A stretch of DNA of 64,000 bases from Gemmatimonadaceae bacterium (GTDB lineage Bacteria > Gemmatimonadota > Gemmatimonadetes > Gemmatimonadales > Gemmatimonadaceae): positions 62,001 to 126,000 of the forward strand of contig JALHNZ010000001.1 in the NCBI GenBank assembly GCA_022843265.1, written 5' to 3'. A program made the position numbers and the translations under genes. Below are positions 30,632-43,597 of the stretch, piece by piece. Positions within the stretch are counted from its first letter, which is position 1. Each line of letters opens with the position of its first letter. The notes beneath the pieces were generated by a model, which worked only from the letters and a program-made list of their open reading frames with translations, was not told the origin of the DNA and made no database searches.

Positions 30632-30704
30632 AGCGGGCGACCGGGCTCGAACCGGCGACGTCCAGCTTGGGAAGCTGGCATTCTACCAACTGAATTACGC
30701 CCGC
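30632..30704 (-). tRNA. tRNA-Gly(CCC), central attachment site
   Basis: A complete cloverleaf on the minus strand: acceptor GCGGGCG/CGCCCGC, D-arm with TTCAGTTGGTAGAA, anticodon stem CCAGC/GCTGG around loop TTCCCAA (anticodon CCC), and T-arm GCCGG-TTCGAGC-CCGGT. It is 73 nt, with no encoded CCA. Both halves are duplicated elsewhere in the window: the 3' half at 27209-27254 and the 5' half at 43598-43635. The shared core is exactly the anticodon loop. This gene therefore serves as attachment site for both element A and element B and is a composite of their ends. Confidence 0.96.
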
Positions 30705-30811
30705 AGACTACAGTTACCGCTCAATCTTACAACGACTTACGCCAGCGCGACAGGTCCGCGAAAGATCACTCGTGCACACGCGCGCGCGAAATGTGCACGA
30801 GCGGGCCAAAA

Positions 30812-30842
30812 AGAGCCCGACTCCACAGGGAAGCCGGGCTCT
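30812..30842 (-). terminator. Rho-independent terminator of the tape measure gene
   Basis: Stem AGAGCCCG/CGGGCTCT, followed on the minus strand by TTTTTGGCCC. It lies 20 bases after the stop codon of the tape measure gene and separates it from the tRNA. Confidence 0.85.
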
Positions 30843-30861
30843 CCTTACCGAGCAATCTTGA

Positions 30862-33800
30862 CTAAATGATCCTGCCGTTGATCAGCAGGGCGCTGCGTTG
30901 CCCCTTGATACCGAGATACCGGTCGACCTGATTCATCTGTTTCTTGCTCAGTGGCCGGTCGAACTCTTCAGCGGTGTCGCGCCCGGAGAGTGCCCCGCCC
31001 GCGCCCTTCCCCTCAACCAGCGCCACCAACCGCCGCAGCGAGGCGGCCGAGGACGCGGCATAGTCCACCAGCTGCAGCGCACTCGCTTCACTGATACTAC
31101 GCGCGCTGCGCACGGCCGTCGTTTCTTCGCCGAGCGTCGTGATCCGCTCAGGCGAGCCACCGCGATAGACCTCGGACGGGGTCCCGCCCACGCCGGCATC
31201 GCTGGTCGTGGGAGTCGTCGCCTTCTCCATCGTCGCGGCAATCAGCGCCTGGTACCGCGCGGCATAGATCGCATCGATCTGCGAGAACACATCCGCGCTG
31301 GCGCCAACGAGTGTGGCTTGGCGCTTCTGGTTGTCGCGCCATTCGTTCAGCTCGGTGACATCGGCGTCGAAGTTGCGGCCTTGTGACCGCTTGTACTGCA
31401 CATCGATGGAGCGCGTGAAGTCGGCCAGCGCGGCCGCGGCTTCGGCTTGCTGCTGATACGCTTTGGTGACCTCAGCGGCGGCCGCGGCCGCATCTTCCAT
31501 GGCGTGCAGCTCGCGCAGCCGCGCGCGGGTGCTCTCATCCACCGCGGACGCGATCTCTTGCGTGCGATCGATCTCTGTCTGTTTGCGCTCCAGCTCCCGC
31601 GCCTTGGCCGGATCCAAGGAACGGTAGACGTCCAGCATACGGCGATCGATATCCGCATTTTGCGACGCGGCCAGCTGCTGCTGTTCAGCGGCGGCCGCCG
31701 TGGCGCGCGCGACCGCTTCGAGCTCCTGCACGTATTGAATCTGCGTGATCATGCTGGCATCCGTCACGCCGGCGAGTTCGCGCCGATTCGCAATATCGAT
31801 GCGCATCTGTTCGGCTTCGATGGTGCGCCCTTCGGCCACGAGTTTGCGCACGCTCAGGTCTTCGACTTGCTGGCGTGTGGCTTCCGCGGCGGCCGCATCG
31901 AAGGCGCGCAGCGCGGCCGTCATTTCGTCGCCGATCAAAACTTTCAGCTGCTCGAACATCTCGCCGGTGATCGTGCCCGCTGCGACCAACGCTTGCGCCT
32001 GGGCGAGTGCGTTGTTCGCGCTGATGGTCTGTCCCGTAGCGAACGCGCCGCGTGTATCGCCGCTGAGCGACTGGCGCCGCGCGGTGATGTCCAGCCCGAA
32101 CGCCTCACGCTCGCGCGCTTGGGTCGCGGCGCGCTCAGCTTCCACGCGCAGACGTGCCGCCTCGGCGGCCTGCGTTTCGGCGACTTGCACCGCGCGCAGC
32201 TGCACGAGATACGGAGAATCGGCGCCGAACCGTGATTCAACCTCTGCGATTTCGCGCAGCTGCTGGAGCCGCAAGCGTTCCGCGTCGGCCGCCTCAGTCT
32301 GTCCGGCCGCCACCAGGCGACGCACGGTCAAGTCTTCGTTCAACCGAGCGAGCTCGCGGGCATTCTGTTCACGCAAAGCCGCCTCATTCGCGACGACCAC
32401 TTCGAGCACCCGCTCGAGCTCAGCCCGGTAGTTCGCGAACCCATTCTGTCCGCGCTTCGCGGCGAAGTCGGCAATCCCTGAGAGCTGCGCGATCTGCGCG
32501 CGCAAGTCATCGGCGCTGTCGAGCCGAAGGCCGCCCGTCTTGATGCCCGTCGCAGCGGCCGCGCCTTTGATCAGCTCTTCTGCGCGCGCGAGATTCTGCC
32601 GCAGTGCTCCGTCCAGCGACGTGCGCGCCACGATCGCGAAATCTTCCAGCGCACGGTTGAACGCGATGGCGGCCTCGGCCATCTGGCGCGCCTTCTCACG
32701 CGCTTTCGTGCCGAAGAGGTCCAGCGCGTCGGCCACCTGCGTAATGCCGCCCAGCACGGCGCCAGCGGCCCCCAGCGCGGCGAACGTGCCCGCTGCCCCC
32801 GCCTTGCCGCCGAGCGCATCGCCAAACGAAACGGATTCACCGACGCCGTTCTTAATCGACTGCGCACGCACGAGTCCGGTCGTAATGGACTGCGCACCCG
32901 TCGCCACTGCGGATACCGTTTTGCCCACCTCGCCGAACGCCTGGGCGATCAGCTGCGCAACGCCAAGAACGTCGCGCAAACCATCAACCCACGCGTTCGT
33001 ATCGGTGAGCGTCGACGGCGGGAGCGCCATGGAGCCCTTCACCTCCACGCCCAAGAGCGCATCGCGCACGCGCTTGAGTCGCTGGTATTCCGCGACCTGC
33101 TGCACGATCCCGGCAATGGTGAGCGGCGTTAGTGCGATGCCCGCTTTCGTCGCAGCCGTCAGCGCCTCAGCAACACCCGCCTGCAGTTCCTGTTGCTGAC
33201 GCAACTTGCTGTACGCGACGCCACCTTCGTTGAGCGCCGCGATCTGTGCGCGCAACTGCGCATTCTCGCGCAGCCGTGCCGCCTCCGACGTCGCCAGCGC
33301 GGCGGCGCCTTCCGTGATTGCGGCCGTGTATGCCTCTTGGCGCTTCATCGCGCGATCCGCGAGTTCGATCGTGAGCAGAACCCAACGCGCCTCATAATCG
33401 CGAATCGCGTCCCCTCGTTCTTTCGCCGCCTTCGCCGCGTCCTGCGTGGCCTTCGTTTGCCGCTCCGTGGCCTGCTCAAGCTGCCCGTTCATCATCGTCA
33501 AGGCCGTGGCCGTCTTGAGCATCCCTTGCGCTTTCTGATCCCCTTCGGCGAGCGCCTGGGCGAACGTGCGGTTCTTTTCGCTGGCGTCTTTCCACACGTC
33601 ATTCGCCGCCTTGAAACCATCGGCCGCGGCCTTCCCGCCCTGTCGGAACATCGCGAGCGCCATGCCGGCGGCTTCGATGTCCTTCACCATGTTCGGCGGG
33701 ACGTAGTTCGCTTTCGCGGCCTTCTCGGCTGCCTCGCGCTGTTCGATGATCGCTTTCGTCGTCTCGTTGATCGCGGGCGTCAGTTCTTTGTGGCTTTTGC

Positions 33801-42492: not shown

Positions 42493-42627
42493 AGACAGGA
42501 CACCTCGCGAACGCTCCCCCGGTCTCGTCCACCGCTCAGGGGAGCGTTCGTGTGTTCAGGGTTCGGATGGCGGAGCGGCGACGATACGCCAGCGATTCAG
42601 GGGCATGGTGCGGAACCGGGTGCGCGC

Positions 42628-42873
42628 TCAGGCGGCGATCTGGTGATCTGGCGAGGCGCTCCCTCCGAGCTCCCGCCATGACAGGAGCTTGCTCCGCGAT
42701 AGGCGGACGCGGCGCCCAACCTTCCAGTAGACACCGGGCGGGATATCGCCGTCTCGGATGGCTTTGGCGAGCTCCTTGGAACTCACGCCCAGCAGCGGCG
42801 CCGCTTCATCGATGGAGATGATCTCGCGTCCGCTGTGCGCGTCGACGGTTTGCGGAATGGTGATCTTGGGCAT
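42628..42873 (-). CDS. AlpA/excisionase-like DNA-binding protein 1
   Basis: 81 residues. IISIDEAAPLLGVSSKELAKAI then GDIPPGVYWKVGRRVRLSRSKLLSW is the arrangement of the MerR/AlpA helix-turn-helix seen in excisionases and phage regulators, with a recognition helix followed by a wing. It could direct excision or regulate the element. It lies directly after the second HTH protein, 3 bases apart. Confidence 0.85.
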   Translation of the reverse strand: MPKITIPQTVDAHSGREIISIDEAAPLLGVSSKELAKAIRDGDIPPGVYWKVGRRVRLSRSKLLSWRELGGSASPDHQIAA

Positions 42874-42876
42874 TGC

Positions 42877-43191
42877 TCAAGCCGCCCGCGTATCTGTGCC
42901 GCCGCTCTTGAGCCACGCGTCGAACGTGTCGCGGTCGAACCTGATGGTTCGTGCAATGCGCGTATGCGGGAGAATGCCTTGCCGGCAGTAGCGCCACACG
43001 GACGCGACGCTGACCCCGAGTCGCTGCGCGATATCGGGCGCGGACAGTGCGGGCGCTGAGTGATCAGGTTGGGGTCCGTTGGACCGCGGCGGCTCGTTTC
43101 GAGCGGCTTGACGTGCTTTGGCGGGGCGTGGGGCGCCGCTCGTCCTGCGCGAGATCGCGCGTTCGACGTTTAGTCCGCTAACACCGCTCAT
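42877..43191 (-). CDS. AlpA/excisionase-like DNA-binding protein 2
   Basis: 104 residues from ATG 43191. The C-terminal half is the HTH_17-type domain LSAPDIAQRLGVSVASVWRY, CRQGILPHTRIARTIRFDRD, TFDAWLKSGG. The N-terminal half is a basic, Pro/Ala-rich linker. An ATG at 43290 would add 33 residues with four Cys, which I cannot decide. It is the rightmost gene of element B and may control the leftward string or excision. Confidence 0.8.
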   Translation of the reverse strand: MSGVSGLNVERAISRRTSGAPRPAKARQAARNEPPRSNGPQPDHSAPALSAPDIAQRLGVSVASVWRYCRQGILPHTRIARTIRFDRDTFDAWLKSGGTDTRAA

Positions 43192-43597
43192 CGGTGCGCC
43201 CGTAGGTGCACCGGCAGGCCGGGAGATGAAACACTGCTGGTCGCATGGGCGACACTCCTCAGAAAGGGCGCTTGTTCGATCAGCATTCACCGATCAAACG
43301 CAGCCAACTACCACCATCGTTTGGCATGATGCAACAACTCGCAACTGATTGCAAGTCCCGCAAACTCGCTCATCACGCAAACGTGCAACGTGCATCACGC
43401 GACGGCGACTTCGCGCGCGCAACAATGTGCACGAGCGTCAAATAGCGACGCTGCAATGCGCTTGTTCCTTCCGGTTTCTTCCGGTTCTTTCCGTTCGCGC
43501 ACTCACGCGTGGCACGCGAGGCAAACACATGCAAACGAACGGATTACACACGTTCTGCGCGACGGGAAAGCACGGGAAAGGACAAGCACTGCGCTGA
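43192..43597. other. Right end of element B, with 10-bp repeats
   Basis: About 400 bases without a clear gene. Three tandem 10-bp units of the type TTCCGGTTTC lie at 43469-43498, and several CGCAAA/GCAAC motifs occur at 43330-43420. Position, 100-270 bases inside the attachment core, suits arm-type integrase binding sites and the promoter of the leftward HTH gene. Confidence 0.45.
43469..43498. repeat. Three tandem 10-bp repeats near attR
   Basis: TTCCGGTTTC, TTCCGGTTCT and TTTCCGTTCG-type units run end to end about 100 bases inside the right attachment core. They are candidate arm-type integrase sites. Confidence 0.45.

Follow-up and report, generated by a model that had tools for sequence, protein, structure and literature searches.

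Gene Content of the Element

The window analysed here, a stretch of 64,000 nucleotides from contig C1 of a Gemmatimonadaceae draft genome (211 contigs), contains a complete 12.9-kb element (30667–43597) inserted at a tRNA-Gly(ccc) gene and flanked by perfect 38-bp direct repeats. The features of the locus are as follows:

27211..30630: adjoining 3.4-kb apparent remnant in the same tRNA-Gly, with a second type of repeat, the 3' half of tRNA-Gly, at 27211–27254 and 30630–30673
30631..30704, minus strand: intact tRNA-Gly(ccc) (ARAGORN), its 5' half contributed by the element
30667..30704: left copy of the att direct repeat, covering the 5' half and anticodon loop of tRNA-Gly, with its core, TTGGGAA, set by the empty site
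30862..34869, minus strand: tape measure protein (TMP), 1335 aa, intact, last gene before the att site (Pfam TMP_3, PF20155, E 7e-56; PHROG TMP models, E down to 3e-70)
35243..36589, minus strand: tyrosine integrase, whose start may be internal (PF00589, E 1e-19; phrog_1, E 6e-56), 46% identical to the integrase of an element in the same tRNA gene of genome G139
37119..37364, plus strand: XRE-type repressor, divergent from the remaining genes (51.6% in a 62-residue match to sequence next to the integrase gene of G139, E 1e-14)
37361..37735, minus strand: g4, 124 aa, of no credible family (ORF and codon bias)
37975..38274, minus strand: g5, 99 aa, its last ~30 residues matching a small phage gene between those of the major capsid protein and the head-tail adaptor
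38344..38883, minus strand: g6, 179 aa, kept in the satellites of G142 (46%), G171 (35%), and G161 (weak)
39089..40150, minus strand: four small genes (39089–39289, 39289–39501, 39504–39920, 39908–40150; ORFs and codon bias)
40310..40428: iteron cluster beside the primase stop, putative replication origin
40425..41858, minus strand: D5_N/DUF5906 primase-helicase, with a start possibly at 41771 (PF08706, E 4e-16; phrog_6088, E 1e-108)
41807..42220, minus strand: g11, 137 aa, adjoining the primase, with 44% identity in the G142 satellite
42220..42492, minus strand: g12, 90 aa (ORF)
42628..42873, minus strand: small HTH/excisionase-like gene, with similar genes in G139 and beside the scaffold gene of the G142 phage
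42877..43290, minus strand: HTH_17 excisionase-like regulator (PF12728, E 2e-12; phrog_66, E 2e-11)
43598..43635: right copy of the att direct repeat, the original chromosomal 5' half of tRNA-Gly, aligning to the intact tRNA-Gly of genome G004

Read from right to left, the element presents the xis-like HTH genes, g12, g11, the D5-type primase-helicase, the iterons, the four small genes, g6, g5, and g4, followed by the divergent XRE repressor, the integrase, and the TMP. An earlier reading of this DNA from its letters alone (the sequence-only reading) had placed here an element with integrase, repressor, helicase with iterons, and HTH regulators, and this was borne out by the att repeats, the empty site, and the Pfam and PHROG matches, as well as by the iterons themselves, a 9-mer (GCAGATGAC) arranged in two inverted clusters. 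The same reading had described a lone TMP without capsid, portal, terminase, or other tail genes, which also held. The TMP was the sole virion gene recognisable with Pfam and PHROGs, and no capsid, portal, terminase, tube, chaperone, hub, or tip genes were found, either when the ten main ORFs were compared with these models or when all proteins of the element were searched by tblastn against C24, a phage contig of the same assembly. In addition, none of the TerS, Rpp, and capsid genes that serve packaging or capsid functions in PICIs and cf-PICIs was recognised in the element by Pfam and PHROGs, no known defence genes were detected by PADLOC among the ten proteins scanned, and promoter and terminator scans gave results no better than those of shuffles.

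Insertion Site

Genome G004, of the same genus, carries the empty site: sequences corresponding to 27074–27254 and 43598–43971 of the window are joined there within a single, intact tRNA-Gly and overlap at the junction by 7 bp, TTGGGAA, which corresponds to the anticodon loop. As both flanks meet in this intact gene, the whole of 27255–43597 is an insertion, and the mobility of the element, like its gene content, is thus apparent from the sequences. A tandem array of 16.4 kb (27211–43635) comprises the element on its right and, on its left, 3.4 kb that looks like a remnant. Within the latter, an AbiEii-like nucleotidyltransferase is encoded at 29499–30080 (PF08843, E 3e-5) and an Rv0078B-like antitoxin at 30052–30585, with a score below the cut-off. 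In a sister species, the same tRNA-Gly site (L137, 3089–4096; G004:C67) shows an insertion of ~0.9 kb between copies of the tRNA 3' half, with two small genes that appear HicB- and HicA-like by eye. The related integrases of the element and of its G139 relative act at the same tRNA-Gly anticodon loop, one element copying the 5' half of the gene (window 30667–30704) and the other the 3' half (G139:C3, 590667–590710).

The Tape Measure Protein and Its Phage Relatives

The TMP reading frame runs through 1335 codons without interruption, and the protein retains the N-terminal ~40 residues, hydrophobic segments near 269–291 and 326–357, and the C-terminal ~400 residues. Its nearest homologue, from phage L098, is 68% identical, and the C24 TMP (1280 aa) shows 51% identity over satellite residues 1–1000. 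The dN/dS ratio against L098 was 0.17–0.26, similar to that of phage pairs, which may partly reflect evolution before capture. The TMP tree places the satellite protein as sister to that of L098 (100/100) and groups the TMP of the G139 element with those of G138 and L112 (100/100), although the G139 protein forms a long row, which is placed with less certainty. These separate positions among phage TMPs imply at least two captures. The G139 protein has lost the TMP_3 domain, but this was rejected as a feature of satellites, as phage L112, from the same clade, also lacks it.

Regarding the genes that accompany a TMP, no homologue of the phage chaperone-like genes (TAC) was detected in the element by tblastn, and no gene was called in the interval 34870–35242. 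In the phages of the C24 group, the TMP comes after the tube and two chaperone-like genes wherever this region is present, and the L098 TMP is likewise preceded by tube and chaperone-like genes; the labels tube, TAC, and tip follow from position and PHROG matches, some of them checked by profile.

C24 itself is a 47.9-kb phage contig with terL, portal, head morphogenesis, scaffold, adaptor, and TMP genes. It represents a plausible helper, its link to the host resting on how a draft assembly of 211 contigs (95% complete, 2% contamination) was binned. The same phage group was found in genomes G142 and G138 and in many IMG/VR contigs, and in G138 bacterial-type genes flank this relative within its contig on either side. 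These C24-type siphophages (C24, G142 C25, G138 C23, L098–L112) constitute the source group of the element's TMP and of the C-terminal stretch of g5, but they differ from it in their size (~48–50 kb) and in their head, packaging, and tail gene sets. Phage L112 (5152–11569) has head and tip genes almost identical to those of C24, but its tail module, which extends from tail completion to TMP, is of a different type.

Genes with Possible Roles in Head Formation or Packaging

Structural genes hidden among the small genes had also been envisaged. No complete one was found with Pfam, PHROGs, or tblastn against C24, but the end of g5 matches the small gene beside the phage capsid gene, with 58% identity over 31 aa (E 5e-6) and 59 bp at 80% to the G142 phage (E 5e-8). 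Also at g5, the G142 satellite and the G142 phage have 111 bp in common at 83% (E 1e-24), which represents sharing outside the TMP.

As for g6, no match was found in the phage collection. Its predicted structure, with a helix, strands, and a long helix (pLDDT 73), gave no fold match with Foldseek, and the protein had no PHROG match, and a scaffold identity, to which the hhalign comparison with phage scaffolds gave a probability of 27.6%, was left as conjecture. It is a possible candidate for a capsid-related factor, as its position suggests. Upstream, in the non-coding gap before g6, the segment 38966–39016 matches the 3' end of TerS from the G142 phage (52 bp, 79%, E 0.004), which could reflect a packaging site or chance. 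As evidence of a shared packaging site, this match was discarded as too weak among several comparisons, and no such site or terminase gene was identified in the element.

Related Small Elements in Gemmatimonadaceae

A lone TMP located at one edge was also found in elements of 12.6–13.4 kb from two other genera of the family, one of them in the same tRNA gene. The element of G139 (590667–604058, 13.4 kb) occupies the same tRNA-Gly and chromosomal neighbourhood and encodes the related integrase and a lone TMP. That of G171 (129837–142449, 12.6 kb) is inserted in a tRNA-Ser with 66-bp repeats and carries g6, a g5-like motif, and a lone TMP-like protein, assigned by profile (E 2e-15), hhalign (96.9%), and similarity to the TMP of phage G105 (7e-17). 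In the three lone-TMP elements, the TMP gene adjoins an att end, an accessory position. Both the recurrence of lone TMPs and their capture from phages are visible by comparison of sequences. Moreover, a 6.9-kb element in the tRNA-Asn of G142 (C3, 42572–49502) has g11, g6, g5, and a related integrase, with a different primase-type gene and no TMP, which indicates that the TMP is an add-on.

Other relatives carry other virion genes. The 14.2-kb element of G161, at a tmRNA site with 21-bp repeats, has a g6-like gene. At 6916–9393 and 9898–11438 (L119, G161:C184), it encodes a lone protein of the tail-tip type (phrog_8917, E 1e-91), 38% identical to the gene downstream of that for the TMP in phage G105, together with a large terminase divided between two neighbouring genes. 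On a partial contig of G012 (L128, G012:C469, 4516–8325), related integrase and xis genes are found together with capsid-like, neck/minor tail, and TerS-like genes, and by its sequence this sister element resembles a capsid-forming satellite. From these gene contents, the related elements appear to share parts of a core and to differ in the virion gene carried. Homologous elements with a lone TMP thus exist, as in G139 and G171, but they have only parts of the core in common. In a primase-based search, the remaining matches fell in full phages or in elements that were unrelated or located at contig edges.

Regarding the origin of the core, its integration, regulation, and replication genes are not helper-derived; integrase, repressor, primase, and xis had no significant tblastn counterpart in C24, and neither this search nor the comparison of relatives revealed core genes homologous to those of a full phage. 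The prospect, raised from the sequence alone, that close relatives would be full prophages was contradicted, as the relatives by integrase and core genes are small elements, and full-phage relatives exist only for the TMP and the end of g5.

Interpretation

This element, small, integrating, devoid of most virion genes, and equipped with its own core, is very likely a phage satellite. We favour, as the probable reading, an integrative satellite that would place its own TMP in the tail of a helper, and the use of this TMP in chimeric tails seems reasonably likely by analogy with the PLE satellites of Vibrio cholerae. Integration into tRNA-Gly(ccc) would be carried out by the element's tyrosine integrase, as its sequence and the empty site indicate. 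Upon infection or induction of the helper on which it would depend, the element may excise and replicate from the iteron origin with the D5-type primase-helicase, judging from the gene families. A C24-group siphophage would supply the capsid, tail tube, chaperones, tip, and probably the terminase, and the satellite TMP would replace that of the helper in some or all tails. In a PLE-like manner, this would give chimeric tails on particles with packaged satellite DNA. Finally, g5, a copy of the end of a small helper gene beside the capsid gene, and the conserved g6 could perhaps act on the head or packaging side.

Replacement of the helper's TMP had been advanced in the sequence-only reading as a way to give tails of another length. 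Substitution stands as the best mechanism, with an experimental precedent in PLEs (PMC12987554), but a markedly different tail length does not: satellite TMPs have 1335, 1201, and 1490 aa versus about 1208–1506 aa in related phages, and a drastic change in tail length is unlikely because these lengths match. Devoid of chaperone or hub, and 51–68% identical to phage TMPs, the protein may make direct use of the helper's chaperones.

An alternative that we consider unlikely is that the lone TMP acts as a decoy that poisons helper tail assembly, as defence or interference, without incorporation into infectious satellite tails. The TMP and the assembly of tails are proven points of vulnerability, at which Rta and Tai act (PMC12987554, PMC11364771), and the element lacks the chaperone normally needed by a TMP. 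However, a fragment could serve as a decoy, whereas this TMP is full length and under purifying selection with all functional regions kept; inhibition of helper tail assembly, also put forward earlier, is less likely because the N-terminus, hydrophobic segments, and C-terminus are retained. Furthermore, the satellite's own spread requires tails. Slightly less probable still is a mobile element independent of phages that carries the TMP gene as neutral cargo, which would fit with the lack of an identified packaging route; against it, the TMP ORF is intact, and the three lone-TMP cases, together with the sister elements with other virion genes (G161, G012), point to virion use. A defective prophage, that is, a C24-like phage reduced to integrase, replication genes, and TMP, is very improbable despite the clear phage origin of the TMP, because C24-type phages share no more than the TMP and the end of g5 with the element, the relatives with shared core genes are small elements, one of them without a TMP, lone TMPs at element edges in three genera come from at least two captures, and a candidate helper is present in the assembly.

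Beyond a satellite that would place its TMP in the helper's tail, we tentatively raise the possibility that a satellite lineage of the Gemmatimonadaceae pirates the tails of phages through the exchange of single proteins, the TMP in three elements and one of the tail-tip type in a fourth. No chaperone would accompany the protein, and one satellite-coded tail protein would be enough to claim the helper's tails. Recurrent, independent lone-TMP satellites in a distant phylum suggest that tail manipulation is a general satellite strategy, and they offer the simplest natural case for asking if the TMP alone decides whose genome's particle gets a tail.

Comparison with Known Satellites

By gene content, the element is like P4-like satellites and the Pseudomonas element AH14b (PMC4936722), with integrase, small regulator, primase-helicase, and small size, but no structural tail gene was reported for AH14b. 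Putative tmp genes have been noted in Vibrio PLE-like elements and in some cf-PICIs (PMC12987554, Extended Data Fig. 10); cf-PICIs build capsids of their own, whereas no capsid gene was found here, and the G012 sister element is nearer to that kind.

In 2026, satellites of one family, the PLEs, were reported to manipulate tails, with hints in a few others (PMC12987554), and it can no longer be said that satellites with a TMP are unknown. In Vibrio cholerae, the PLE TMP is built into particles and that of the helper excluded, and deletion of the PLE tmp gene cuts transduction by 96–99.9% (PMC12987554). Like PLE1, PLE4, and PLE11 (PMC12987554), the element is very likely a small phage satellite with its own TMP, which would take the place of the helper's. 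In contrast, the PLE TMP comes with a chaperone (TAC), and in PLE11 also with the hub BhuB, and the PLE helper ICP1 has contractile tails and a TMP 20% identical to that of PLE11, whereas the element comes from a host of another phylum, and the relatives of its TMP belong to siphophage-type phages and are 51–68% identical. TMP-bearing satellites are a kind already known from PLEs, and what differs here is a TMP without chaperone or hub, in a distant phylum.
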